Source of the DNA: Desulfobotulus mexicanus
GTDB lineage: Bacteria > Desulfobacterota > Desulfobacteria > Desulfobacterales > ASO4-4
Assembly (NCBI RefSeq): GCF_006175995.1
Contig: NZ_VDMB01000016.1
Coordinates: forward strand, 1-64,000
Length of the DNA: 64,000 nt
Direction: 5' to 3'
Part shown: piece by piece, positions 33,868 to 56,766 of the stretch
Numbering within the stretch: position 1 is the first letter of the stretch
Layout: every line of letters begins with the position of its first letter
Position numbers and translations under genes: made by a program
The notes under the pieces: generated by a model
Told to the model about the DNA's origin: nothing
Seen by the model: only the letters and a program-made list of their open reading frames with translations
Databases searched by the model: none

Positions 33868-35883
33868 ATGCAAGATTCCTGGACCATCGGAAAAAAGCTG
33901 ATCGCAGCTTTTACCAGCCTCACTGTAATTGTGCTGTTTCTGGGGATTATCGGTTATTATGGACTCACTCAGATGGAAAATTCCATTGATGAAATCGGTG
34001 AAGTTCGCCTCCCCAGTGTTCAGAGCGTTCTGGAAATGGAGCTTCATTTAACAGAGATTGTAGAATCCATGCGTACTCTTCTCAACCCCAGCAACAGCAT
34101 GGAGATAAGAAAGGCACAGTATGCTGATATTGCTGAAGCCAGAGAAGCTTACAATACTTACAGAGCCATTTATGAACCTCTGCCCCAAAGGGCCGACGAA
34201 GCCCGGGAGTGGGAGGCTTTCACAACCATACTTCCTCAATGGGTAGCTGCAAACAACGCAGTACTGGCCATGCATGAAGAACTTGACCGTATAGCCATAC
34301 TTGACCCGAACAGTCTCATCGCTCACCTTCAGGCCTTCCGTGGAGATCATTATGCCCTGGAACTGCGGATAGCCAACCTTCTGATTTCAGGCCGGAATTT
34401 TGAAGGCGGTGAAAACCACAGAAGCTGCGGATTCGGCCGCTGGCTTGAAGGTTTTTCTACGGAAAACCCTGTACTGCTCAGAGCACTTGCATCCGTATCT
34501 GAGCATCATCGTATTTTTCACTCTTCCGTGGGTGAAATACGCACAGTCTTGCAAAACGGAAATCAGCAGGAAGCTGTCCGCATCTTCAATGAACGCATGC
34601 AACCGGCGGCCGAAGGAGTTTTTGAAGGTTTTTATCAGATGATAGCAGAAGCAGAGCGGGCTGGTGCACTTTATGACAGGATTAATAATGAAACCATGAC
34701 CCGGCTGCGTAATTTACAGGAACAGACCATGCATCACCTGGAACGAGTCGTGGATATAAACATGGAAATCAGTGAAGAAGAAATGGCCGCTGCCCACAGT
34801 CAGGCCTTATTCCTTGAAATACTGGCCCTTGCTTCCATGATTGCTGGTGTCCTCCTTTCCATTGCACTGGGCTTTTTCATCACCCGCAGCATCAACACCA
34901 ACTTAAGCCGCATCATAGCAGGGCTCTACGACGGCTCAGATCAGGTGGCTTCTGCCTCAGGTCAGGTTTCTTCCGCCAGTATCTCCCTTGCAGAAGGTGC
35001 CAGTGAGCAGGCCGCATCCATAGAAGAAACCTCTTCTTCCATGGAAGAAATGTCTTCCATGATCGGCAAAAACGCCGACAATGCAGGGGAAGCCAACAGC
35101 CTCATGGGCCAGACCCGCCAGGTGGTGGAAACTGCAAATAAATCCATGGCTGAACTAACCTCTTCCATGACGGATATTACCAAAGCCAGTGAAGAAACTT
35201 CTAAAATCATTAAGACCATAGATGAAATTGCCTTCCAGACCAACCTGCTGGCCCTCAATGCAGCCGTGGAGGCAGCCCGTGCCGGAGAAGCAGGCGCAGG
35301 TTTTGCCGTGGTGGCCGATGAGGTGAGAAACCTTGCCATGCGGGCTGCGGAAGCGGCAAAAAATACGGCAGCTCTCATTGAGGGAACCGTAAAAAAAGTA
35401 GAAAATGGAAGCGGACTTGTTACCCGCACCAATCAGGCCTTTGCTGAAGTGTCCGTCAGCAGTGAGCGTGTAGGACAGCTTGTGGCGGAAATTGCCGCAG
35501 CATCCAAAGAGCAGGCCCAGGGCATAGAACAGATCAACAAGGCCGTTGCTGAAATGGACAAGGTGGTACAGCAAAACGCTGCCAATGCCGAAGAATCCGC
35601 ATCCGCATCCGAAGAAATGAATGCCCAGGCAGAACAGATGAAGGGCATGGTACAGGAACTGGTGGCCATGGTGGGAGGTGCTGCTGCCAGTGCCAGAAGA
35701 AATACCCATAGCCAGCCCAATTACAGGGAAGAAAGCTACAGCCACCCGGCCCCTGCAAGGGCACAGGCTCCGGCAAGGCAGAACCATGACAGAGGCCTGA
35801 AGAGACCACCCCAGACCAAGGGCAGGGAAATCAGCCCTAAGCAGGTCATCCCCATGGATGATGATGATTTTGGCCGGTTTTAA
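33868..35883 (+). CDS. Chemoreceptor with CZB-like zinc domain in the sensor region
   Basis: 671 aa. TM1 (~10-30) is followed by a four-helix-type sensor. TM2 is at ~316-338. Between them residues ~155-225 match the chemoreceptor zinc-binding pattern: His161 in GDHYALE, Cys187 in SCGFGRWL, then His214 and His218 in HRIFH. This domain is usually cytoplasmic; here the topology puts it outside. The signalling part is complete, with tip [20 protein letters not shown] and [13 protein letters not shown]. The C-terminus ends [10 protein letters not shown], a conserved-looking acidic-aromatic tail on a flexible linker that may bind adaptation enzymes. GGAG precedes the ATG. It is the last gene of the cheA module. 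Confidence 0.93.
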
Positions 35884-35922
35884 TCATGGGAATGGAAAGT
35901 GAGAAGTAGAAAGTCACTATAG

Positions 35923-35944
35923 GGGCAGGCCACTGTGCCTGCCC
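35923..35944 (+). terminator. Hairpin terminator after the cheA module
   Basis: GGGCAGGC (35923-35930) pairs perfectly with GCCTGCCC (35937-35944) around CACTGT, 40 bases after the chemoreceptor stop. The following tail (ATCCTTAATAA) is only moderately T-rich. Confidence 0.6.
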
Positions 35945-35959
35945 ATCCTTAATAAAGAC

Positions 35960-36049
35960 CCTGAAGCAAAGATTTCTCAACATGTGATATACTGCTTTGG
36001 CAATCAGGGTTTTAAGGTTTTTGATATTGATAAAGGATAGGACATGACA
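35960..36049 (+). repeat. 90-base copy of the sequence preceding the kinase at 52834
   Basis: This stretch matches 52750-52839 with one difference (GATATT here, GATATC there). The other copy holds the last 26 codons of a small ORF, its stop, the ribosome site AAAGGATAGG and the ATG of the kinase. Here the ATG is followed at once by a stop (ATGACATAG), so it is a gene fragment. The match ends exactly where the inverted-repeat element at 36050 begins. Confidence 0.9.
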
Positions 36050-36229
36050 TAGGCTGTCTAAAACCCATCAAAAAATGCCATTTATTTTCACCGGTTTTTA
36101 ATATCCACCACCTGACTATCCGTCAAAGGCAGAGGATTTTTGATAGTTATTTTAAAGGGAATGCAGTGAGCGCTGTTTGATAAGCGGATAAAAACCGGGC
36201 AAAAATTTGAGACCATTTTAGACGGCCTA
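36050..36229. mobile_element. MITE-like element bounded by imperfect inverted repeats
   Basis: TAGGCTGTCTAAAA (36050-36063) is repeated inverted at 36216-36229 with one mismatch. Further in, CCGGTTTTT on the left (near 36091) matches inverted CCGGTTTTT on the right (near 36191), so the symmetry extends unevenly about 40 bases into each arm. The 180-base interior has no gene. It abuts the 90-base repeat on the left and the ribosome site of a small ORF on the right. Whether it is a mobile element or a long RNA stem cannot be settled from one copy. Confidence 0.5.
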
Positions 36230-36253
36230 AGCCTGAAAGGAAAGGAGCTTGCC

Positions 36254-36502
36254 ATGACTACAGCGGAAAGATTGATAAACGAAGGTATGATGATGGGCCG
36301 TAATGAAGGTGAGGAAATTGGTGTGGTTAAAGGCATGTACAGCGAGAAGTACCAGACCATTATGAGTCTCCGTGAGTTTAATATGAAACCAGAGGATATT
36401 GCCAAGGCAACCAGGCTTACCCCTGAGAAGGTCAGAGAAGTCCTTGCCGCTGGTGACAAGGGGCTGGATCTGCTCATAGGCGACAGCGCCACCAAACAAT
36501 AG
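36254..36502 (+). CDS. Small ORF resembling the C-terminal tail of Rpn-family putative transposases
   Basis: 82 aa with a good AAGGAG before the ATG. The segment LINEGMMMGRNEGEEIGVVKG has the Gly-spaced charged helix, and NMKPEDIAKATRLTPEKVREVL the helix-turn-helix-like end, typical of the C-terminus of Rpn/PD-(D/E)XK recombination-promoting nucleases. The nuclease core is absent. It is either an independently expressed tail or a relic of a larger gene destroyed when the neighbouring repeats arrived. Confidence 0.6.
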   Translation: MTTAERLINEGMMMGRNEGEEIGVVKGMYSEKYQTIMSLREFNMKPEDIAKATRLTPEKVREVLAAGDKGLDLLIGDSATKQ

Positions 36503-36731
36503 TTGCGGCTCCATATCCATCTGCTCTGCTGTGGTTGCTGTATTTGCAGCCATTGCAGGGTTGGGGATTCTTTTTTCTTTGCCCTGCTTTATTTGACTTC
36601 TTCAGTTTCAGTTCAGCCCCTACCCTCCCCCGAATGCGGACACGATTCTTGGGAATTCTTTTTCTCTTTTATAATGGGTTTTTCTGTGTGGGCCTTGCCC
36701 TGCTGCATGTTAGGCTCGTAGGAGCGGGCGT

Positions 36732-36836
36732 ATGAAAACAACGATCAGAATTACAACGGATCTGGTTTATCAATGGGCAGAATCATTAAAAGTCCCGTCC
36801 CCTAACTTTAACTTCGTAAAAAATCGTGTCCCTTGA
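36732..36836 (+). CDS. Doubtful 34-residue ORF
   Basis: AGGAG lies about 8 bases before an ATG opening MKTTIRITTDLVYQWAESLK, ending KNRVP. The surrounding 36503-37337 is T-rich with broken frames. I see no family and list it only because of the ribosome site and the sensible composition. It may be the relic start of a lost gene. Confidence 0.2.
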   Translation: MKTTIRITTDLVYQWAESLKVPSPNFNFVKNRVP

Positions 36837-37337
36837 CTGTTGTTCTTGCATTCAATGGAAGCTGTATGATAAAAAGAGTTTACATTTTTTATCATATATG
36901 TTTTTTTGTAATTATTTTTTGAAACATGACCTTGAGCATCTCTATTCTTGCCACGTTTTGGATGCTACACATTAAAAAACTCTGACTCACTTAAGGGTAT
37001 GCATACCCTTTTCATCAGCTTCTGAGTGACAAGGATAAAGCATGATAAAAAATGTTTTTTGTGTGGCTAAAACATTGCGGGGGGGGCAAAAACCCTTAGC
37101 AAAATCCTTCTTCTCTGTACCTGTCAAAAAATGGACCCATTACTTAAAAAAAACATCCTCCTGCCCTGCTTCAATTTTTTTCACTCCAAAATTCAGCCCT
37201 TCCCTGTGGTTATACTGGGTAATGGCAGAAACTTCCTACCTGCACCAATTCTTTTTCTTTCATAGGTGTTCAGAAAATCAGAAATCAAAAACAGAGAAAC
37301 TGGCTGAAGCAAAAAAAACATGGGAGGAGATTTCATA
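36837..37337. other. AT-rich intergenic stretch before the third chemoreceptor
   Basis: Low-complexity T-rich sequence without a convincing gene. The distinct features are an 18-base palindrome (listed separately) and a run of eight G near 37079-37087. The last 20 bases carry the ribosome site GGAGGAG of the chemoreceptor at 37338. I found no promoter with good spacing. Confidence 0.6.
36993..37010. promoter_or_regulatory. Perfect 18-base palindrome, possible operator or terminator stem
   Basis: AAGGGTATGCATACCCTT is perfectly self-complementary and is followed by TT. With no loop-forming spacer it looks more like a dimeric regulator site than a terminator. It lies about 330 bases before the chemoreceptor ATG. 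Confidence 0.45.
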
Positions 37338-39059: not shown

Positions 39060-39180
39060 ACCATCACCCCTGCACTCAGGCGAACTAGCTTCAGTACATT
39101 GAACAAATCCAGTTTATGGCCTGTGTGCAGGGCAAAGCCCCGACCCTTCTGGCTTCGAGAACCTCAGCCAGCACCCGAAA

Positions 39181-39235
39181 GGAGAGGGGAAAAAAACAGC
39201 CATCCCCCAAGGCCCCCTCTCCCCCACCGTTTTTT
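39181..39235 (+). terminator. Hairpin terminator after the third chemoreceptor
   Basis: GGAGAGGGG (39181-39189) pairs with CCCCTCTCC (39214-39222), followed after a few bases by a six-T run (39230-39235). The 24-base loop is large. It lies between the chemoreceptor and the next ribosome site and would separate the two transcripts. Confidence 0.5.
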
Positions 39236-39264
39236 GCAGTCACATTTTTCAGAAAGGAAACAGG

Positions 39265-40473
39265 ATGAAAAAATGGAACGCAGTCCTTGCTGCCCTTCTT
39301 CTCTTTTTCCCTTTTACACTTGCAGGAAGCTCTTCCCCCCTGATTATTGGCATTGATGCAGACATGAGCGGTGGATCAGCAAAGGCGGGCCAGTCCATTT
39401 ACAGGGGCACTTTGCTGGCGGTCAATGAAATCAATGCCAGAGGCGGACTTCTGGGAAGGCAGCTCCATCTGGAAGTAAGGGATCACCGGGGCAACCCCGC
39501 AAGGGGCCTTGCCAATATGAAAGAATTTGCTGCCATGCCGGATCTTCTTGCTGTGATGGGCGGGCTGCATACACCGGTGGCTCTGGCCGAACTTCCCCTG
39601 GTGCATGAACATGGCATTCTTTTTCTCATACCCTGGGCCGCAGGAACCGACATTGTTGACAACGCCCATGATCCCAGTTTTGTGTTCCGGGTTTCGGTCC
39701 GGGATGCGGATGCCGGGGACTATCTCATTGGCAAGGTGCAGGAGGCGGGATACAAAAAACCGGGGCTTCTGCTGGAGCAAACTGGATGGGGCCGATCCAA
39801 TGAACAGGCCATGCGTAGAGCCATGGAAGAAAAAAAAATGCAGAAGGCCGGAGTCCGGTGGTTTCACTGGGGAGCCCAGAACATGACACCCCAGATCCTC
39901 TCCTTGAAGGATGCAGGCGCCGATGTCATCATGCTGGTTGCCAATGCGCCCGAAGGACTTGCCCTTGTAAGATCCATGGCTGCCCTGCCCTGTGAAAAAA
40001 GGCTGCCCATCGTTTCCCACTGGGGAATTACAGGGGGTGACTTTGCAAATGAGGCAGGAGACCTTCTCCATGACATCTCTTTGTATGTTTTACAGACCTT
40101 CTCCTTCAGCGCAGCTCCGGTGCCCGAAAAGGCAGACCACCTTTTTGCCCTTTATAAGAAGGAATATCCAACAACCACCCTGCCCGAAGATATTCCCGCA
40201 TCCCCCGGCCTTGCCCATGCCTATGATCTGGTGCATCTCCTTGCAAAGGCAACAAAAGCCGCAGGCACTTCAGAAAAAAGGGCCGTTCGTGACAGCCTTG
40301 AAACTCTTTTATCCCATGAAGGGGTCATGGGCAATTACAGCCCTCCCTTTACCCCCCAGCGCCACGATGCCCTGAACTCGGACAGTTTCATCACCGCCTG
40401 CTTCAATAAAAAAGGCAACATTGTGCCATGCCAGATCACACCGGCAAAAAGGCAAAGTGAGAGATGCCAATGA
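39265..40473 (+). CDS. LivK-like periplasmic ligand-binding protein
   Basis: 402 aa with a signal peptide ([20 protein letters not shown]). The mature start [19 protein letters not shown] and [20 protein letters not shown] are typical of type-I branched-chain-amino-acid-type binding proteins (Peripla_BP_6), and [13 protein letters not shown] fits the ligand-cleft region. AAAGGAAA precedes the ATG. No permease or ATPase gene follows; instead the stop overlaps the start of a membrane hybrid kinase. That arrangement is known from sensor pairs such as TorT-TorS and LuxP-LuxQ, so a sensory rather than transport role is likely. The ligand is unknown. Confidence 0.9.
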
Positions 40474-43436
40474 ATCATATTGCCAGCCAGCTACCGGAGG
40501 CAAAGGAAGACGGCAACACATCAGGCTTTCAAGCGCCAACCAAAGAAAACCCTGATTTCCTGTCGTATATTCTGTACCGCATGATCCCTCCTTCCCTTAT
40601 CGTTCTTTTTTTAATGGGCTGCATCATCATCGCCGTCACCCGATCTTTCATCCTTGCCAACGCCCAGGAAAGGCTGGAATATGAGGCCGACAGGGAACAG
40701 CAGAGGATAGAGGAAAAAATAAAGGACATTAAAAAAATTGCCTCTTCCCTTGCGGAAAACGATCTGATCATCAATGGAATCATTGATACGCTGGAAAGGG
40801 AACGCTATCTGCCCCTTTTTTTCCAGTCCTTAAATTTCACGGGTTCCGTTTCTTCCCACATTGCCCTGCTGGATTTTGCGGGTCATGTGATTGTTTCCAA
40901 TGAGCAGAAAAGCTTCTGCCATGCCTGCAAAAAGGCAGCAGAACACCTGAAAAAAACAGGACTTCCCATTTTTTTCGACAAAGATATCCTCATGATTGCA
41001 AGCCCTGTTCTGATCCATGGCTTCCATGAAGGAACTGTCATTATCTCCTTTCATCCCAAAGATTTTACAGCCCTTCTTGAGCTGGACAACACCCCAACCC
41101 CAATTGCCCTTTTCAGTAAAAATGAAGAACAGACCCTCATGGCCAATGCAGGTTTCAAAAATGCATTCGGAGAAAAAACGCCAACACTGGACCCCTATCT
41201 TCTGGTGCGCACAAGAAATATTCTGGATATTCCGGATATCTACCTTGCCGTGGGGCAGGATAAAAAAGTGGCCACGGCAGCCCTGAAGTCCATAGGCTTT
41301 TATATGGCAGGAATCGCTTTTTCCGGAATCATCCTGCTGGTTCTTGCCATTTTTAACAGTACCCGTATGGCTGTCAGGGAGGTAAAAATTTTAAGCGATG
41401 GCATCCGGGGGATAATGGAGCATAAGGATCTGGCCCACAGGCTTGGGGCTTCCGGACCAAAGGAGTTGCAGCAGCTTGCCATGGCCTTTAACAACACCCT
41501 TGAAACCCTGGAATACAGCACCATTTCCAGGGAAGAACTGGAGCAGGTCAATTCAGCCCTTGAAGAAGCCATTACAAGGGCGCAGGCCATGGCCATGGAA
41601 GCGCAGATGGCAAGTATCGCCAAAAGTGAATTCCTTGCCAACATGAGCCATGAAATCCGCACCCCCATGAATGCGGTGATGGGCCTGAGCCGCCTGCTTT
41701 CCGACACGCCCCTCAATGACCAGCAAAAAGACTGGCTTGCAAAAATCAACCGGTCTTCCCGCCTTCTTCTGGGGATCATCAATGACATTCTCGATTATTC
41801 CAAAATTGAAGCAGGAAAGCTTGAGCTGGATCCCCATCCCTTTGCCCTGGATGCGTTGCTGGAAGAGGTTCAGGATCTTTTCATGGAATCGGCAGCGGAA
41901 AAGAAACTGGCCTTTACCCTGACCATCCCGGAGAACATGCCCAAAACCCTGATGGGTGATTCCTTAAGGCTGATGCAGATATTGAGCAACCTTGTCAGCA
42001 ATGCCATCAAATTTACGGAAAAAGGTTTTATTTCCCTCATCGTAAAATTGAATCCTGAATCCATGGCGGGAAGTGAAAACAGCTCTGGATCTGAAAAGCC
42101 AGATACAGCACTGGCAGATCTTGTTTTCTCTGTGGAAGACAGCGGTATCGGCATGGATGAAGATCAAGTGGCAAAGCTCTTTCAGCCATTTTCCCAGGCA
42201 GATACATCAACCACCCGCAAATATGGCGGCACAGGCCTTGGACTTGTCATCACCAAAAGATTGGTGCAGGCCATGGGAGGAGAACTTGCACTCTCATCCT
42301 TCCCCAACAAAGGCAGCACCTTTTCCTTTGATCTGAAACTGCCCGCCACAACCATGCAACCGGTCAAAAACCATGAAAACGCCGAACGTCCTTCCTTCAG
42401 CGGCTACCGCATTCTTCTTGTGGAGGACAATCCCCTGAATCAGGAAGTGGCAATCCATTTTATTGAAAAAACGGGCGCAGCGGTCATCCTTGCGGAAAAT
42501 GGCCTCAAAGCCATTGAAATGACAGAACGTGAAAAACCGGATCTGATTCTCATGGATCTTCAGATGCCTGTTATGGACGGCTTTGAAGCAACAAGAAAAA
42601 TCCGGGAAATGGAAAAGCCTGATGCCAGACCCCTGCCCATCATCGCCCTTTCTGCTGCGGTGATGGAAAATGACCGCATAAGGGCCAGAGAAGCAGGCAC
42701 CAGCGGCCATTTGGAAAAACCCATAGATGAATCTGAACTCTACCGAACCCTGTCCGGCTTCCTTGACCCCTGTGGCCTCATCATAAAAGAAAATACCTGC
42801 ACCCCCACAGATCTTTTTCCTGAACTCAAGGGATTTAACGAAAAAAAAGCCATGGCCGCATCCCTCGGGGACAGGGCCTTTTATGTAAAAATACTGAAAT
42901 CCTTTGCAAAACAGCTTGGGGAAGATTATATCCCCAAAGCAAAAAATATCCATCAACTCAATGCAAAAGAGATACAGCACATGGCCCACAGCCTGAAGGG
43001 AACAGCCGCAACGGTGGGGGCTGTTCAGATTGCAGAGATTGCTGCATCCATGGATGCCATCTGCAAAGATGAAAAAATCCCTTCCAAGGCCCTTGCTCTC
43101 TCCCTTGAAAGGGCCCTTGAATCGGCATATTCTGAGATCAGCATTTTTTTATCCTCGGAAAAAGTCCCGGAGCAAACCCTACAAAACCCCGCCGACGAAA
43201 AGGAAGGGCTTAAGGCGGCAAAAGACCTCCTTGACATGCTCTGTCAAAATGTCTTTGTGGAAGACACTCTTCTTGATCCTGCCCTTGATTTTATATGCAA
43301 AAAACACGGTGCAGACAAAGCTCTTAAAATCCGGGAGCTTGTGGAAATATTTGATCTCTCGGCAGCGGCTGAAGATCTTGATAAACTGCTTGGGGAAGAG
43401 GAAGCGGGAGACAAGGGAAACCCCAAAAAACCGTAA
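40470..43436 (+). CDS. Membrane hybrid kinase coupled to the LivK-like protein
   Basis: 988 aa from the ATG at 40470, four-base overlap with the previous stop; an ATG at 40464 is also possible. TM1 (~39-60) and TM2 (~277-298) frame a periplasmic domain of ~215 residues. HAMP follows (~298-352), then a coiled coil. His394 is in [15 protein letters not shown]. ATPase motifs are [17 protein letters not shown] and [13 protein letters not shown]. Receiver Asp696 is in [13 protein letters not shown]. Hpt His840 is in [14 protein letters not shown] further C-terminal module of ~90 residues is shared with the next kinase. It is probably the signal partner of the preceding binding protein. Confidence 0.93.
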
Positions 43437-43449
43437 AGGAGTTTCAGGC

Positions 43450-46400
43450 ATGACAATGAAAATAGAAAGAAACAGGCTGAAACCCCAAAAGATATTCCCA
43501 AACCCCATCCCTGCCCCATGGCTTTCCATGGCAGGGGCCCTTGTCCTGTTGTTTTTTACCATATCCATACCTGTGCAGGCAGAAGAAAGAAACCTTAGTG
43601 ACAATCAAAGGCTGAAGGCCCTTTCCATGGCCTCCTTTGAAGCCATCTTTCTTTCGGAAAAAGGCATATGCATCGAGCAGAATCAAAGTGCGGAAACCCT
43701 GTTCGGTTATACCCTGGATGATGCAAGGGGAAGGCCGGGCACAGACTGGATAGCCCCCATAGACCGCCCCATGGTGATGGAAAAAATGATGTCCGGCTAT
43801 GGGGGGGCCTATGAGGTCCGGGCTTTGAGAAAGGATGGCACAGAGTTTCACGCTGAAATTCAGGGCCGCATAATAGAGGTGGGAGACAGGCGGATACGGG
43901 TAACGGCACTGCGGGACATCAGCGACCGTAAAGAACTGCAAGCAAAAATGGCCGCCAGCACAAGGTTTTTTATGCTGTGGCTTTTCGGGGTCATCTTCCT
44001 GCTTCTTGCTCTGAGTACCGGGCTTTTTTTCAGCATTCTGCAACGGAAGCGCTCTGACTCAGAACTCAAAAAAAGAACATGGGAGCTGGAGTCCATTTTT
44101 AAATCCGCCAGAACCGTCAGTCTGATCAAGACCGACATGGATTCCATCGTTGAGGAATTCAGTTCCGGCGCTGAAGAAATTTTCGGCTATACCAGAGAAG
44201 AAATGATCGGCCGCCATGTTGGGATTCTGCACACAGAGGCAGAATCATTCATTCTAAAAAAATATGTGGACAGATTGGTGCAGGGAGAAGGCTTTACCAT
44301 AGAAACCGAACTTGTAAGAAAAAACGGCAGCCTCTTTCCTGCCCTCTTCAGTGTCCAGCCTGTGTATGACACCAATGGCAGCATCATCTCTACCCTTGGC
44401 ATTACCTTTGACATCAGTGAACTGAAAGCCGCAGAAAGTTCCCTTAGAAGAAGCGAGCTGAAATACCGCCTCCTGTTTGAAAACATGAATGCGGCCTTTG
44501 CCCTCCATGAAATGATCTACGATCAGGATGGCAGACCTGTGGATTACCGCTTCCTTGAAATCAACCCCATGTTTGAAAAACTGACGGGTGCCAAAAGGGA
44601 AATGATCACAGGCCGCACCGTTAAGGAAGCCATACCGGAAACAGAAGACTACTGGATAGAAACCTTCGGTCAGGTCTGTCTTACAGGGCAGCCCATATCC
44701 TATGAAAACTATTCAAAGGGTATCGGCCGCCATTTCGATACCTTTGCTTTTTCTCCTGAAAAGGATCATTTTGCCGTATTTTTTGTGGATATAACGGACA
44801 AAAAAAAAGCAGAAGAAAATCTTAAAACAAGTGAAGAGCGCTTTAACCGGGCAATTTCCGGAACCGGAGCAGGTCTCTGGGACTGGGATATGATAAAGAA
44901 CACGGTGTATTTCTCCCCCCAGTGGAAAAAGATGCTGGGCTATGAAGACCATGAAATTCCAAACGACTTTTCCGGATGGAGACAATTATGGCATCCTGAT
45001 GATGCCCTGTATATTGAAAAATCAATTCAGGAGTACCTTGATGGAAAATCAGAAAGCTATGAGGTTGAGCATCGCCTCCTGAATAAAGAGGGCAACTGGC
45101 AATGGATTCTGACACGGGGAGAAATTGAAAAGGATGCATCGGGCAGGCCCATCCGCTGGACAGGCACAAATATTGACATCACCCACCGCAAGCAGGCCGA
45201 AGACGCCCTGAAGCTTGCCAAGGAAGAGGCCGAAGCTGCCAATGCCGCCAAGGGAGAATTTCTGGCTAACATGAGCCATGAAATCCGCACCCCCCTCAAC
45301 GCCGTGATCGGCTTAAGCCGTCTTATGGCAGATACACCTTTAAATATCCAGCAGCATAACTGGCTTGAAAAAATAAACCGCTCTTCCCGCCTCCTTCTGG
45401 GGATCATCAACGATATTCTCGATTATTCAAAAATCGATGCAGGCAAACTGGTGCTTGATTACCAGCCCTTTACCCTCAAGGACATCACCGAAGAAATAAA
45501 AACCCTCTTTAAGGATGCTGCCGAAAAAAAGGGGCTGGAGCTGGTACTGTCCGTCTGTCCGCAAATTCCAAGGGTGGTAAGGGGCGACTCCTTACGGCTG
45601 ATGCAGGTTCTCACCAACCTTTTAAGCAATGCCATCAAATTTACTCCCAAGGGCTTTGTTGCCATGAGCATCGGCCATAATGTCTGCCACGCAGAGGAAA
45701 AAACGCCTGTCCATACGGTTCAAAGCCCAAAAGGACTTCTGTTCAGCGTGGAAGACAGCGGCATAGGCATGGACAATGAGCAGATAAAAAAAATCTTTCA
45801 GCCCTTCTCCCAGGCAGACACATCCACCACAAGGATGTTTGGCGGCACAGGCCTTGGCCTTGTGATCTCCAAAAAACTTGTGGAAGCCATGGGCGGCGAG
45901 CTTTTATTCCATTCCGAACCCGGTAAAGGAAGTACCTTCTTTTTTTACCTGAATCTGGAAGAGGCTTCTTCTGAAAGAGGCATTGCAGACAGACCGGAAG
46001 CTTTAGGGGAAAAGATGCACTTTCTGGTGGTGGATGATCAAAAACCCGCCAGAACCGTTCTGAGAAAAATCCTTGAGAGCTGGAATGCCAGCGTCCATGA
46101 GGCTGGCAGTGGGATGGAAGCCATTGAGGCGGTTATGGAGGCAGATAAAAAAGAAAAAGCTTTTGATTGTATTCTCATGGACTGGAAAATGCCCGGAGAA
46201 CTGGATGGGCTGGGAGCCATTAAAAAACTGGATGCGCTGTACAAAAACAAGGTGCTGAAAGGCCCCAAATCACCGATATTTGTGATCAGTGCATACAGCA
46301 GAGAAGAGCTTCCCCGTGAAAAACCCCTTTTCAAGGCCTTTCTGTCCAAGCCAGTAACCGCTTCCGATTTATTTGAGGCCATGGTTGAAGCTCTGGGCAG

Positions 46401-47469
46401 CGGCAATCTTCCTCGCATCACCCCAAAAAAAGATTCAAAAATTCCTGCCCTAAGCGGTTACAGAATTCTCCTGGTGGAAGACAACGCCCTGAATCAGGAA
46501 GTAGCAACCCGTTTTATTGAAAAAACAGGTGCAGGGGTCATCCTCGCAGAAAATGGCCTTAAAGCCATTGAAATGACAGAACGTGAAAAGCCGGATCTCA
46601 TTCTCATGGATCTTCAGATGCCCATCATGGATGGATTTGAAGCCACCCGTAAAATCCGGGAAACGGAAAGGCCCGACAAACAGGGGCTGCCCATCATCGC
46701 CCTTTCTGCTGCGGTGATGGAAAATGACCGCATAAAGGCCAGGGAAGCGGGTACCAGCGCCCATATGGCAAAGCCCATTGATGAGGCGGAACTGTACCGC
46801 ACTTTAGCCAGATTCCTTGAACCCAGGGGCTGGATCAATAAAGAAAAACCAGAAAACGACGTGAATCACTTCCCTGAACTTTATGGCTTTAACCGTAAAA
46901 GGGCCATGGCAGCATCCCTTGGGGACAGGGCCTTTTATGTGAAAATGCTTACATCCTTTGCAAGGCAGCTTGAAGAAGTCTTTATCCCCAACACCCAAAA
47001 AATAACCAGGCTGAACCCGGAAGAAATCCAGCACATGGCCCATGCCCTGAAGGGAACCGCCGCAACGGTGGGGGCTGAACAGGTATCAGAAATTGCAGAA
47101 ACCATGGATAAAACATGCAAGCAGGGCAAGCTTCCTCCTGATACCCTTATACATTCCCTTGAAAAAGCCCTTATATCTGCCGAATATGAAATAAGAAACC
47201 TTTTATCCTCAGAGCAGAAAGGGGAAAAAAAAGCCCCCCTTTCTGTCAATGAAGAGGAAGGCCGCAAGGCCCTTGGGCTTCTCCTTGCCAGCCTTCAACA
47301 AAGCGAACTTGCAGATGATGCCCTTCTGGACACGGCCCTTGATTTTATAGAAAGCATGCACGGCCCGGAAACAGCGGATGAAATCCGCAGATTTGTGGAA
47401 ATTTTTGATATGGATCAGGCCGCAGGGCGGATTCAAGGATTGGTTCTTCCTCAAACAAAGGAATTTTGA
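43450..47469 (+). CDS. Hybrid kinase with four PAS domains (first one predicted periplasmic), two receivers and Hpt
   Basis: 1339 aa from the ATG at 43450, preceded by AAAGGAG; the frame is open ~420 bases further back but that overlaps the previous gene. A signal anchor (~23-43, ending PVQAEE) and TM2 (~172-195) enclose PAS1. PAS2-4 lie at ~214-327, ~334-450 and ~462-580. His610 is in [15 protein letters not shown]. The ATPase has [10 protein letters not shown] and [13 protein letters not shown]. Receiver 1 has Asp911 in [14 protein letters not shown]. Receiver 2 has Asp1054 in [13 protein letters not shown]. Hpt His1198 is in [13 protein letters not shown]. From the ATPase on it is closely related to the preceding kinase. 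The stop overlaps the next ATG. Confidence 0.92.
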
Positions 47470-50009
47470 TGCATACTTTTGAAAATCCTCCTGAAAAATC
47501 AAAAATTATGGTTGTGGATGACCAACCAGTGAATATCCACTCTCTGGCAAGGCTTTTAAAGGACGACTACCAGATACTTGTGGCCACAGGAGGCATCAAG
47601 GCCCTTGAAATTGCCAGAAGTGACAATCAGCCCCAACTGATTCTTCTGGATATACAGATGCCGGACATGGATGGTTACGAGGTATGCCGAAGGCTTCAGG
47701 CCGATGAAAAAACCCGGAAAATACCAATCATCTTTGTCACTGCAAAGGATTCCGGCTCCGATGAGGAAGAGGGCCTTGCCCTGGGAGCCGTTGATTATAT
47801 TTCCAAACCCTTTGTGCCCGGTGTTGTCAGGGCAAGGGTTGACAATCAGATCCGGTGGAAACTGGCCGAAACAAAGCTTAAAAAAAGCAATGAAGAACTG
47901 GAAAAAGCCACGGCCCTGGCACGGGATCTTGCCGTGCGTGCGGAGATGGCAAACAATGCAAAAAGCGAGTTCCTTGCCAACATGAGCCATGAAATCCGCA
48001 CCCCCATGAACGGTGTCATGGGCATGGCTGGCCTCCTGCTGGATACGGAACTCAGTACACAGCAGCGCAGATACACAGAAACCCTCTACGCCAGTGCTTC
48101 TGCCCTGCTTTCCTTAATCAACGATATCCTTGATTTCTCCAAAATTGAAGCAGGCCATCTGGAGCTTGAGACTCTGGAATTCAACCTGAGACCCATGCTG
48201 GATAGTTTTGCTGGCATGTTTGCCTTTAAAGCGGATGAAAAAAATCTGGAGCTGATCATTTTCGTCGAAGATACCGTTCCGGACCGACTCATTGGCGATC
48301 CCGGCCGCCTTCGCCAGATTCTGACCAACCTTGTGGGCAATGCCATCAAGTTCACCCATGCGGGCGAAGTGCTGATCCACGTCAGCCTTGAAAAGGAGGA
48401 AGATTCCGGGGTCCGGCTCCGTTTTAATGTGCAGGATACCGGCATAGGCATCCCAGAAAAAAAACTCAACCGTCTTTTCAAACAGTTCAGCCAGGTGGAT
48501 GCTTCCATATCCCGACAATTTGGCGGTACAGGCCTTGGTCTTGCCATATCAAAAAAACTTATACAGCTCATGCAAGGAGATGTGGGGGTAAAAAGTGAGG
48601 AAGGTAAAGGCTCCTGCTTTTCCTTCACCGCCAGATTCCAGACCGCAGAAGAAAAAAGCTGCAAAAGCATCCTGCCTGCTGAACTTGGCGGTCTGCGGGT
48701 TCTGATTGTGGATGACAATGCCACCAACAGAGAGGTGCTGCGTATCCGTCTGGAATCAAAGGGTATGATCGTTGAAGAGGCGGCAGGCGGTCCAGAGGCC
48801 TTATCAATACTTTATCAGGGCCTTGAAAAAGGCCAGATATATCCCCTGGCCATACTGGACATGCAGATGCCCGGAATGAACGGAGCCGTTCTGGGGCAGG
48901 CCATCAAATCCGATCCCAGACTGAGGGACATCCGCCTTGTCATGATGACCTCTGCCTGTATGCGCGGTGACGGCGTAAAAATGAAGGACATCGGTTTTTC
49001 TGCCTATCTGGCAAAACCCGTTCAGTATGGCGAGCTTTTCACCTGCCTCTTACTGGTGATGGGAAAAAATGAACCCTCTTCTCTCATAACAAGGCATACG
49101 GCCAAGGAAGTACAATACCATTGCGTACCGGATTTTTCTGAAAAGAAAACCAGCATTCTCCTTGTGGAAGACAATATCACCAACCAGCAGGTGGCATTGG
49201 GGATGCTTTCAAAAATGGGGCTGAGGGCAGACACGGCTGCCAATGGCCTTGAAGCCCTTGAGTCCATGAAAATGATTTCCTATGATCTTATTCTTATGGA
49301 TATGCAGATGCCTGAAATGGACGGACTCACTGCCACAAAAATTATCAGAAAAACAGAAAAACTTTTTTCCATAAAACCCGTACCCATCATAGCCCTGACA
49401 GCCAATGCCATGAAGGGAGACAAGGAAAAATGCCTTGAAGCAGGCATGAACGCTTATCTTGCCAAGCCCCTGATGACCGAAGAACTTGCAGCGGTGTTAA
49501 ACAAATGGCTTGAAACAGATGACAAGGACGGCAAAAACAAGGATGGCAAAAGTCCCTATCTCTCCTTTGAAAGAAATGACCATCGGCCAGACACCCATTC
49601 CCGGCCCTGTCAGGCCCCTGCAAGGCCATCTGTTGATTCAAAAGAATACAGATCATCCCTGATAAAACCGCCTTCAGCCCGTCTTGTCTGGAATGCCGAA
49701 ACCCTTGAAATCATGCTTTCCGGTGACAAAGAGCTTTCTGAAACTATTAAAGAAACTTTTATTGTTGAGATTCATAAATATGCAAACAAACTTAAATCCG
49801 CACTGAAATCAGGCAATGCTGAAAATGCCAGGCATGAAGCCCATACAATGAGAGGCTCATGTGCTTATGTGGGCGCAGAAGTCCTCATGGATACGGCATC
49901 ACATATAGAAGAAATGATACTATCAGGTAATATGGAAACGGCCCTTACTCTGGTTCCGGTTCTTGAAAATTGCCTTACGGATCTTCTTAAGGCTCTGGGC
50001 TCTGAATAA
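47469..50009 (+). CDS. Soluble hybrid kinase: REC-HK-REC-REC-Hpt
   Basis: 846 aa, no membrane segment; the ATG at 47469 shares a base with the previous stop. An N-terminal receiver (~10-130) has Asp61 in [14 protein letters not shown] coiled coil leads to HisKA with His174 ([15 protein letters not shown]). The ATPase has [18 protein letters not shown] and [13 protein letters not shown]. Receiver 2 has Asp464 in [13 protein letters not shown]; receiver 3 has Asp611 in [13 protein letters not shown]. The Hpt has His792 in [13 protein letters not shown], with Arg where Lys is usual. With no sensor of its own, it probably takes its input through the N-terminal receiver from another kinase. Confidence 0.92.
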
Positions 50010-50029
50010 TCAATATGCGGGGGCTTTCC

Positions 50030-52582
<2,553 letters not shown>

Positions 52583-52602
52583 AATTGAGCTCTCATTCCA
52601 GG

Positions 52603-52830
52603 ATGCTGTTGCTCCCGGAACTTCATTCCGAGAGAACAAGAAGCAATGCTGCCTTTAATAAATTCCATACAGATATTAAAAACTTCACACTGATTCCTGA
52701 AGATACTCAGCAGATTGCAGGCTATGTGGAAGGACTTAAAAATGAATGTCCTGAAGCAAAGATTTCTCAACATGTGATATACTGCTTTGGCAATCAGGGT
52801 TTTAAGGTTTTTGATATCGATAAAGGATAG
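52603..52830 (+). CDS. Small protein of unknown function between two kinases
   Basis: About 75 aa from the ATG at 52603 (MLLLPELHSERTRSN...); a GTG at 52579 overlapping the kinase stop would give 83 aa. It ends HVIYCFGNQGFKVFDIDKG three bases before the next kinase ATG, so it could be translated in the operon. Its last 26 codons and stop are duplicated at 35960-36049. I recognise no family and see no membrane segment. The ribosome site is poor, so it may also be a decayed gene whose end is kept because it carries the next gene's ribosome site. Confidence 0.5.
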   Translation: MLLLPELHSERTRSNAAFNKFHTDIKNFTLIPEDTQQIAGYVEGLKNECPEAKISQHVIYCFGNQGFKVFDIDKG

Positions 52831-52839
52831 GACATGACA
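52750..52839 (+). repeat. 90-base repeat, copy within the kinase operon
   Basis: This is the partner of 35960-36049 with one mismatch. It spans the end of the small ORF and the ribosome site and first codons of the kinase at 52834. Confidence 0.9.
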
Positions 52840-55800
52840 AGCAATACAGTTCTGAAATTCATAGGAAAGAGGCTTGTCATTGCCGCCATACTGCTGCTTC
52901 CTTTGGCCCTTCATGCAGAAAAGCTGGAACTGCTTGCGGATGAGAAGGCTTATCTGAACAGTCTGGGTGAAATAAGCATGTGTGTGGATAATGACTGGGA
53001 ACCCTATGAGCTTGTAGATGAGCATGGCAATTTCACCGGCATTGCCGCAGATCTGATAGGCATTGTTGCAGAAAGACTCAATATCCCCTTTGTCATTATT
53101 CCCACAAAGGACTGGGCCGAAACCCTGGAAGTTTCCAGACAGGGTGGCTGCATGCTCATCCCTTTTCTTAACCAGACCCCGGCCAGGGAAGAATGGCTGA
53201 CCTTCACCGAAGCCCTTTTTACAAACCCCAATGTTTTCATAACCCGTAATGAACACAACTACATTTCCGACCCTGCAGAGCTGGTGGACAGAACTGTGGT
53301 CCTGCCCCATGGAACATCCATGGGGCAGTTTCTGCGGGAAGATTACCCCAACCTGAACATAATCACAGTGGAAAACGAAAACGAATGTTACCGGAAGGTT
53401 TCCGCAGGAGAAGCGGACATGACCCTTCGTTCTTTGACCATGGCAGCCTATACCATCCGCAGAGACGGCTGGTTCAATCTTAAAATTGCGGGCCAGCCTC
53501 CTCAGGATCATTACATGAACCGGCTCCGCATGGGTGTACTCAAAGAGATGCCCGAGCTGCGGGATATTCTGAACAAGGCAATTGTTACCATCACACCACG
53601 GGAAAGGGATAGCATCGTCAATGAGCATGTGAACATTGTGGTGGAAACCCCGGTGAATTACAGGCATCTGTTCAGGGTCATAGCTGTTTTTTCAGTTTTT
53701 CTCATCCTCAGCCTTATCTGGGCCTGGCAAATCAAAAGCCGTAACAAGAAACTGCTGGAACTGAGCGAAAACCTGCGCCAGAGCGAACGCAGCCATCGCA
53801 TCATTTTTGAAAACTCACCATTAGGAATGTTCTATCTGGATACCTCTGGGACCATAATGAAATGCAATGACCAGCTCCTTGAGATTATGGGCTCCACTCG
53901 TGAAAAACTCATCGGTTTCAATACCATGACCCTCTTGCCAGAACCTATCAGAAAAATTACACAAAAAGCCCTGAATGGTGAGCAGGTAATTCATGAAGAC
54001 ATCTACACTTCCATTACAGGCAAGAAAACATCCTACCTGCGTCTTATCTATAATCCCGTCCATCCCGGTACTTCCCCCACAGAGGTCATTGCCACACTGG
54101 AAGACATCACCGGACGCAGGCAACTGGAAGAAGAAGTCCGTTTCAAAGATAAGCTTCAAAGACTGGTTGCTGAAGTTTCAGCGGACTTCATCAATGCCAA
54201 CACTACTAATATCGATATAAAAATAAATTCCATGCTCCAGAAATATGGAGAATTTATGGGCGTGGACAGAACCTTTGTGTTCAAGTTTTCCGAAGATGGG
54301 CAATACATGTCAAACACCCATGAGTGGTGCGCTCCGGGCATAGAATCTGCAAATGCAGCCATTCAGAATTTCCCTTTGGCCGAACTGCCAACTAACTATG
54401 AAATCTTCCACCAGCGAAAAATCTTTTATGTACAGGATGTGGATCAATTGCCAGATGGGCCGGATAAAAGGCTCTTAGAATTCCAAAAGGTCAAGTCAGT
54501 GCTCTGTATTCCAATTTTCCGTAACAACCAGATTTTAGGTCTTTTAGGCTTTGATGCTGTCATAAATAAATGCATTCTGGATCAGGAGCAGATAGAAATA
54601 CTTAGGGTAATGGGCAATATCCTGGGCGACACACTGCTCAAGAACCGTTTTGAACAGGAACTCCTGCAGGCAAAAGAGCAGGCCGAGCTGGCCAGTATCG
54701 CCAAGAGTACATTTCTTGCCAACATGAGCCATGAGATCCGTACCCCCATGAATGGTGTCATGGGCATGGCAGGACTGCTCATGGATACCCGCCTTGATGA
54801 AGTTCAACATCGATATGCAAAAACCATAGAGTCCAGCGGCAAGGCTCTGCTGAATATTATCAACGACATACTGGATTTTTCCAAAATCGAAGCCGGTAAA
54901 CTGACACTGGAAACCATAGACTTTAATCTGCAGGCTCTGATGGATGATTTTGTGGACAGCACAGCCCTCAAAGCCAGCGAGAAAAAGCTTGAACTTATAA
55001 CCTTCCTTGAGCCTGATGTTCCCCGTCATATCCTTGGTGACCCCGGCAGACTGCGGCAGATACTTATCAATCTTACGGGCAATGCCCTGAAATTTACGGA
55101 TAAGGGAGAAGTCATTGTTCATGTTTCTGTCGAAAATATGGATATAAATGAGGTACAGCTCCGCTTTTGCATCAGGGATACGGGCATTGGTATTCCGGAG
55201 GATAGAAAAGATCTGCTCTTTAATGCCTTCAGCCAGGTAGATGCATCCGTCAGCAGAAAATTCGGAGGTACAGGACTTGGGCTTGCCATATGCAGACAGC
55301 TTGCTTCCATAATGAAGGGTGAGACAGGAGTTGAAAGTGTTGAGGGTGAAGGCTCAAGCTTCTGGTTCACGGCCCGTTTTGGTCTGCAGGCGGATAAAAA
55401 TAAAAGCAGGCCTGAAATCCAGAAAAGTCTTCAAGGGCTTCATATCCTTGTGGTGGACGACAATGCCAGCAGTCGCAAATATCTGTCCAAAGAACTTGAG
55501 TTTATGGGCTTTAAACCTGAAACTGCGGCAAACGGAAAAGAGGCTCTTGACAGGCTTGTCTCTTTCCATGGCCAGAAAAAACCCTTTCGCCTTGCCCTCA
55601 TTGACAGAGATATGCCGGATACGGATGGCATGGCCCTTGGAAAAAAAATAAAAGAAGATGATCGTTTTCAAGATCTTTTCCTTGTCCTGCTCACTCCCCT
55701 TGATCAGACATACAAGAGGCTGAATGAAGAATCCGGTTTTACGGGTTTTATAAATAAACCCCTGCGGCAATCGGATCTCTTCCATGTACTGAAATCGGTA

Positions 55801-56766
55801 TTGACAGATGAAAAGCTCCCTTCCTTCGAAACCCTTGAAGGAAAAACAGTATGTCCTGAAATATATAGCCTTCCCTGCTTTTCCGGCCGCATTCTCCTTG
55901 CGGAAGACAACACCACCAATCAGGAAGTGGCCCTTGGTCTTCTGCAGAAATTCGGCCTTGGTGCAGACATCGCAGATACCGGTCTTAAAGCCCTCCATGC
56001 CTTTGAAAGCAGTACCTACGACCTTATTTTCATGGATGTCATGATGCCGGAAATGGACGGCCTTGAAGCCACAGGAAAAATCCGAAACCTTGAGGCAGAC
56101 CGTTTAAATTTAATTGAAAATACAAGGGAAAAAGAATCAGAAACACGCTTTTTACAAAAGGTTCCCATCATCGCCATGACAGCAGCAGCCATGCAACAGG
56201 ACAGGGATCGCTGCCTTGAAGCGGGCATGGATGACTTCATCTCGAAACCCGTAGAGCTTCCTGATCTAGCCCGGATACTGGAAAAATATCTGCCTTTAAA
56301 CAATGAGACAGAAAAAGCACCCTTAAGGCCGGAAGAAAATAACCAGAAGAAAACAAAAGAAACTACACGCACATCACAAATGCCAGAAGATATTGCCAAT
56401 GCAACAGAAACAGATCCTTTGATTTTTGATTATGGGGGATTTTTAAAAAGGTTCATGAACGACCAAGCTATCGTTGATAAGGTTTTATCCATCTGCATGG
56501 AAAGCCTTCCCCAGCGCATGGAAGATCTGAAAACAGCACTCAAAGCCAATGACCTTGCCAATGTGCATCTGCTGACCCACACCCTCAAAGGCAAAACCGC
56601 CAACATCCATGCAGCAACCTTTTCCTCCCTGGCAGGGGAAATGGAAAAAAACGCTGAATCCGGAAATATGGATGAGGTAGGCAAACAGATGACAGGCCTT
56701 GAAGATGCCTATGAAAAGCTTAAAAATGAGGTGGAAAAGATTTTTTCTCTGAAAAGCAAAGACTGA
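52834..56766 (+). CDS. EvgS/BvgS-like hybrid kinase: SBP-PAS-GAF-HK-REC-REC-Hpt
   Basis: 1310 aa; ATG preceded by AAGGATAGG. A signal anchor (~8-27) leads to a periplasmic SBP_bac_3 domain (~28-270: [47 protein letters not shown]), like those of EvgS and BvgS but as a single copy. TM2 is at ~280-300. A PAS (~318-430) and a GAF (~440-605) follow. HisKA His633 is in [15 protein letters not shown]. ATPase motifs are [11 protein letters not shown] and [13 protein letters not shown]. Receiver 1 has Asp924 in [13 protein letters not shown], receiver 2 has Asp1068, and the Hpt has His1249 in [13 protein letters not shown]. It probably senses an amino acid or similar solute. It ends the second kinase array. 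Confidence 0.94.
55798..56667 (+). repeat. 870-base direct repeat, copy 2
   Basis: Partner of 51614-52483, seven mismatches by eye and no gaps. Three of the mismatches change a residue (Lys/Glu, Gly/Arg, Arg/Thr). Confidence 0.93.

Follow-up and report, generated by a model that had tools for sequence, protein, structure and literature searches.

The 90 bases at 35960-36049 of the analyzed window, a stretch of 64,000 nucleotides of Desulfobotulus mexicanus, are a real and young scar, ordinary in kind, whose pieces can mostly be named. With moderate confidence, we regard this segment as a non-functional remnant, namely, a copy made recently from the point where the tail of a dead gene meets a hybrid histidine kinase, which an element-associated deletion would have cut down to its present length. 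The window forms part of contig C16 of a draft assembly (3.83 Mb, 69 contigs, 98% complete), and all searches described here as own-genome searches refer to this assembly.

The comparison of 35960-36049 with 52750-52839 on the forward strand confirms the single mismatch described by the sequence-only reading of this DNA (89 of 90 bases identical), which is T36028 in the left copy against C52818 in the right copy. The two copies lie 16,790 bp apart. Each carries the 26 last codons and the stop of a small frame, identified below as the tail of a PDDEXK_9 gene, followed by a ribosome site and the kinase start ATGACA. That reading had reported an ORF end, a ribosome site, and a start codon, and all three are present in the left copy, where TAG at 36038-36040 closes the small frame, an AAGGA-type ribosome site follows, and ATG ACA occupies 36044-36049. 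The parental copy at 52750-52839 runs uninterrupted from the gene tail into the kinase. At the left copy, the ATG opens a frame of two codons, because the next three bases, TAG, are the first bases of a miniature inverted-repeat transposable element (MITE)-like element.

Searching the own genome with the 90-mer returned five matches: the two copies and three further matches on contig C2 at 82-83% identity, which sit at the 3′ ends of PDDEXK_9 genes. The second copy was recovered at E = 4.7e-40, which excludes a chance match. The three C2 matches end at query base 76-79, the full 90 bases are covered by two of the five matches, and the last 11 bases, with the kinase start, are reached only by the two copies in this assembly. 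Given that there is no third full-length match in the genome, the 90-mer is not a dispersed mobile repeat, although its right neighbor at the left copy is a mobile-element relic. In the broader set of 40 genomes (our own and 39 relatives), five contained any match to the 90-mer, and the six matches outside the own genome showed 75-85% identity over 63-75 bases. A search of 35951-36260 against 72,556 plasmid records yielded no match at E 1e-5.

The small ORF that precedes the kinase at the parental copy had been taken for a kinase leader, an interpretation that does not hold. From about 52642, the DNA is 82-84% identical to three genes on C2 over 174-185 bp (among the matches listed), and the homologous part, at 52642-52830 on the forward strand, amounts to an orphan 3′ tail of 62 codons and a stop from an AAA-ATPase_like/PDDEXK_9 gene. 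The three C2 genes, whose open frames measure 584, 590, and 607 codons, all score above the PDDEXK_9 (PF08011) cut-off, and the one that was scanned against Pfam carries both AAA-ATPase_like and PDDEXK_9. When the translations are aligned, the homology of the tail begins downstream of an E-F-K segment that the full-length copies contain, which we take to be the catalytic motif of PDDEXK_9. The ORF at 52579-52830 as a whole matched no Pfam and no NCBIfam model, and in other genomes, the match starts at ORF residue 22 or later at all 60 of 60 loci. The stretch of about 60 bp between the preceding kinase stop and the tail (52583-52641, forward strand) has no relative among the genome matches listed or elsewhere in the window. 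The pairwise dN/dS of the orphan tail is about 0.17-0.19 (four of eight relatives with an alignable piece), a value that spans the time before orphaning and therefore says nothing on the present function of the tail. The small ORF is best read as mostly a dead gene tail rather than a leader.

This reading is further strengthened by the sole same-genus orthologue of the kinase that was examined, on contig C29 of genome G001 (74% protein identity), which has a chemoreceptor (MCP) gene upstream and no tail ORF. The junction of tail and kinase is thus not general to the genus, and since the 90-mer spans this junction, the 90-mer must be the younger of the two.

The parental copy lies in an array of sensor kinases. 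The hybrid histidine kinase before it occupies 50015-52582, and the one that starts in the 90-mer occupies 52834-56766 (both forward strand), the latter with SBP_bac_3, PAS, GAF, HisKA, HATPase_c, two receivers, and Hpt. Near their C-terminal ends, the tract 51620-52483 of the first kinase and the matching part of the second, 4.2 kb apart, are identical at 857 of 864 positions (seven mismatches), whereas the two G001 counterparts of these kinases are only 74% identical to each other, so the array seems to exchange sequence between neighbors. The near identity of this tract suggests a recent conversion or duplication. We also observed that 50209-50430 of the kinase at 50015 is instead 92% like 47630-47851. 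Because the divergence of the kinase pair (7/864) is close to that of the 90-mer (1/90), a single event behind both was considered but judged the less likely reading: a near full-length G001 orthologue of the 50015 kinase exists (query 2-2542 of 2601, 83%), so exchange with the neighboring kinase accounts better for the tract.

The sequence-only reading had further proposed that the 90-mer marks an event joining two kinase arrays. Five collinear pieces of 39097-52541 match G001 contig C51 at 87-91%, and this second array, at 39.1-52.5 kb, is therefore older than the scar, which lends the proposed joining no support. In G001, different DNA fills the contig beyond the last kinase of the block, and the orthologue of the 90-mer kinase lies on another contig. 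The sequence between the two copies in the window holds the MITE-like element, a stand-alone rpnS-like gene, an MCP, a gene for a periplasmic binding protein, and four kinases. All of this, 16,790 bp, would be lost if the 90-mers recombined with each other; the sequence-only reading had envisaged this deletion with correct arithmetic, and it may be possible in the future.

On its left side, the truncated copy is preceded by an MCP gene at 33868-35883 (forward strand; Pfam MCPsignal and 4HB_MCP_1) and by a REP-like palindrome at 35920-35944 (forward strand), which ends 15 bases before the left copy. The palindrome recurs nearly unchanged at four further genomic sites that then run into different DNA, with the C1 match extending 9 further bases at 88%. 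On its right side, the copy ends at 36049 and the MITE-like element begins at 36050, an exact abutment. The DNA after the 90-mer had been described as unrelated; it is indeed not kinase sequence, and yet it can be named, first as this element and then as the rpnS-like gene.

The element at 36050-36229 (forward strand) measures 180 bp and has 14-bp terminal inverted repeats that are 93% complementary. Its single-strand hairpin is more stable than expected (z = -3.03; none of 200 shuffles as good). Relatives in the own genome were found at C18:68257-68436 (97%) and C12:82452-82628 (82%), together with a 41-bp match on C4, giving three whole copies (C16, C18, and C12) and one fragment match in the assembly. 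A related 251-bp element, matching in two pieces at 80 and 84%, is present on contig C3 of a second species, G002, and overall, the element was present in 2 of 58 genomes, our own included. We call it MITE-like. The 9-base direct repeat expected at the element ends is matched at 9/9 positions for the G002 copy, 7/9 for C12, 5/9 for the window copy, and 1/9 for C18, the counts for C12 and G002 having been made by eye from the flanks; the probability of at least 7/9 identity between random 9-mers is 0.0013. The window copy thus shows no clear target-site duplication, as expected of a junction at whose end trimming or recombination took place. Across the genome, the end pattern alone shows no enrichment (eight matches compared with 24 for a reversed control), and beyond the three pairs, two of the eight matches are single ends on C1 and C15. 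Neither an autonomous parent with the same ends nor a further end pair at up to one mismatch was found in the own assembly. Two more specific assignments were rejected. A TA-target (IS630-like) MITE was considered because both ends carry TA, but the 9-bp repeat of the G002 copy lies outside the TA-bearing ends. A reciprocal exchange of the elements on C16 and C18 was considered because both are without a clear target repeat, but their flanks are not complementary when compared by eye.

Directly beyond the element lies DNA that is collinear with an rpn gene, as 36228-36611 (forward strand) matches C21:37122-37505 at 78% and comprises the 3′ end of the rpn gene with its downstream flank; its first two bases overlap the element end. 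The rpn homology starts where the element stops, and to the left of that point, other DNA is found in the rpn copies. The 5′ (nuclease) part of the rpn gene is missing at the window locus. What is left is an intact stand-alone frame of 82 codons at 36254-36502 (forward strand), with a conserved ribosome site GGAAAGGAGCTTGCC before its ATG. The 33-base box that contains the ribosome site and the ATG is common to seven other places, six at 100% and one at 97%. The product aligns with the C-terminal region of the protein encoded on C21, a protein that matches Transposase_31, and from residue 12, it carries the repeats MMMG-RNEG-EEIG-VVKG, while five other aligned copies have 4, 8, 12, 12, and 16 residues fewer. 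This comparison covered six of the eight box-bearing copies, leaving out those on C26 (contig end) and C7 (S frame of 45 codons). With four repeats, the window gene has one more than the full-length C21 copy, which has three of the same types.

RpnS has been described as an intragenic antitoxin of Rpn that is C-terminal and has its own ribosome site, with separate rpnS genes also known and with four-residue repeats in variable number from 8-20 residues after the Met; a repeat-matching result from the same study would predict that specificity follows repeat number (PMC10327210). By its sequence, 36254-36502 resembles this C-terminal antitoxin part of the Rpn nucleases and may be called antitoxin-like. 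The protein alone reached only sub-threshold profile matches (TIGR01784 at E 0.024, the sigma-factor model NF058625 at E 0.0031, and Sigma70_r3 at E 8.3e-4); as these are weak and two of them are to sigma-factor models, the gene is assigned to RpnS on the basis of its collinearity with rpn genes. Private changes in the gene comprise two silent and one replacement change, too few to judge selection. A sigma-70-like site (9/12 positions) lies within the element at 36177-36206, and the three such sites in 35860-36560 compare with 1.3 (sd 1.1) in shuffles, which is weak evidence. It is conceivable, though improbable in our estimation, that the loss of the nuclease part and the arrival of the element and the 90-mer as a new upstream region produced a free-standing and separately controlled rpnS that could disarm related Rpn nucleases of the same genome. 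As separate observations, 36781-36842 is a further short repeat that is 80% like C14:70392-70450, and locus L010 (G000:C27:34320-37352) holds a pair of rpnS-like starts separated by about 300 bp. Upstream of the second, no more than 37 codons are open, so this locus may carry a downstream rpnS that arose by duplication, comparable to the published case of ypaA.

The polarity of the two copies is set by their surroundings. The right copy merges without a break into the tail on one side and the kinase on the other, whereas the left copy has neither and is bordered by foreign DNA on both sides, which identifies the left copy as the truncated one. Together with the finding that only two of the five genome matches cover all 90 bases, this bears out the earlier proposal that the segment is a relic of a duplication. 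The single mismatch by itself is no proof of right-to-left copying: T36028 is also found in the three C2 genes and is likely the ancestral base, kept in the left copy, which suggests, from one site only, that the right copy changed after copying.

We propose that a larger copy of tail and kinase once stood at about 35.9 kb. The kinase body and the 5′ part of the rpn gene may then have been lost together in an event that ended at the element terminus, plausibly by recombination between two element copies or by a transposase-linked adjacent deletion, and a second loss would have trimmed the left side near the REP-like palindrome. It counts against this deletion model that it needs at least two losses and that the 9-bp target duplication accompanies only two of the four element copies. 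In addition, the own draft assembly of 69 contigs yielded no intermediate, whether a longer copy or another element that adjoins the missing 5′ part of rpn.

The explanation that competes most seriously is a one-step templated patch, in which a break at the element end destroyed the 5′ part of rpn and repair copied 90 bases from 52750-52839, either by a replication template switch or by Ku-independent end joining. We consider this possible and somewhat less probable than the deletion model. A single event would account for both the copy and the loss of the rpn 5′ part, and the copy is indeed short and sharp-edged, with foreign flanks on both sides and a right edge that coincides with the element end. 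Ku gave no match in the own genome (98% complete), which renders classical end joining unlikely, and any end-joining route to such a patch would thus have to be Ku-independent. At the right junction, however, microhomology is not evident beyond perhaps one base, the lost acceptor sequence being unreadable, and the papers listed on templated insertion are, judging by titles, mostly eukaryotic and provided no bacterial precedent in print. We therefore modestly prefer the deletion model, for which exchange within the array and copies of the element are seen, over a patch that no microhomology marks.

The geometry of the locus also invites the thought that the array itself entered here, either as a 16.8-kb stretch that integrated at a shared 90-bp repeat or through the splitting of an older MCP-kinase adjacency, with a copy left on each side. 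The copies do bracket the element, the rpnS-like gene, an MCP, and the 39097-52541 block, whose G001 counterpart is not followed by this kinase. The G001 kinase orthologue stands directly after an MCP on another contig, and if the two copies recombined, the window kinase would likewise come to follow an MCP. That resemblance weakens on inspection, as the G001 MCP is without a match to the MCP at 33868 at E 1e-20 and finds its best window match, at 37%, in the MCP at 37320. Moreover, the tail runs unbroken through the right copy, so that the junction of tail and kinase must already have been part of any DNA that came in, and the element abutting the left copy is left unexplained; we regard this scenario as doubtful. 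A functional leader or regulatory element common to the kinase and the gene after it appears very improbable: both copies retain a reading frame, a ribosome site, and a start codon, but the frame is mostly the tail of a PDDEXK_9 gene, the G001 kinase does without it, and the start in the left copy opens a two-codon frame. An assembly error seems just as remote, for although the draft consists of 69 contigs and places two near-identical stretches on one contig, the copies differ by one base and stand in different contexts, and the right junction is an element end.

Read as a scar of this kind, the locus corrects an annotation trap, in that an apparent kinase-leader ORF is mostly a dead gene tail, and it turns seemingly anonymous DNA after the 90-mer into the relic of a mobile element followed by a stand-alone gene of antitoxin-like character, which is the most useful by-product of the analysis. 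It also bears on recent rearrangement in the sensor-kinase array, where the copy must postdate the junction of tail and kinase and where two nearby kinases appear to have exchanged sequence at similar divergence. Moreover, the direct repeat provides a defined site at which the loss of four kinases could be sought.

Each of the pieces finds a counterpart among known systems. With the published Rpn (PF04754, YhgA-like)/RpnS system (PMC10327210), the stand-alone gene shares its own ribosome site, repeats that begin after residue 11, and the precedent of separate rpnS genes, and it differs in that the nuclease part is gone and the MITE-like element and the 90-mer stand in its place. The orphan tail belongs with the AAA-ATPase_like/PDDEXK_9 (DUF1703) family by its 82-84% DNA identity to the 3′ ends of three whole C2 members, while only the last 62 codons are present here and the E-F-K segment is absent. 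MITEs are matched in the length of 180 bp, the terminal inverted repeats, and the relatives at other sites and in a second species; the differences are that no autonomous partner was found in the own assembly and that the target duplication, present in two of four copies, is not clear in the window copy. Finally, gene-remnant scars beside IS or MITE ends occur in bacterial genomes, and the locus resembles them in its short truncated copy, its foreign flanks, its edge at an element terminus, and its lack of a clear target duplication, whereas it is set apart by a donor that still stands 16.8 kb away and by a piece that spans the junction of two unrelated genes.
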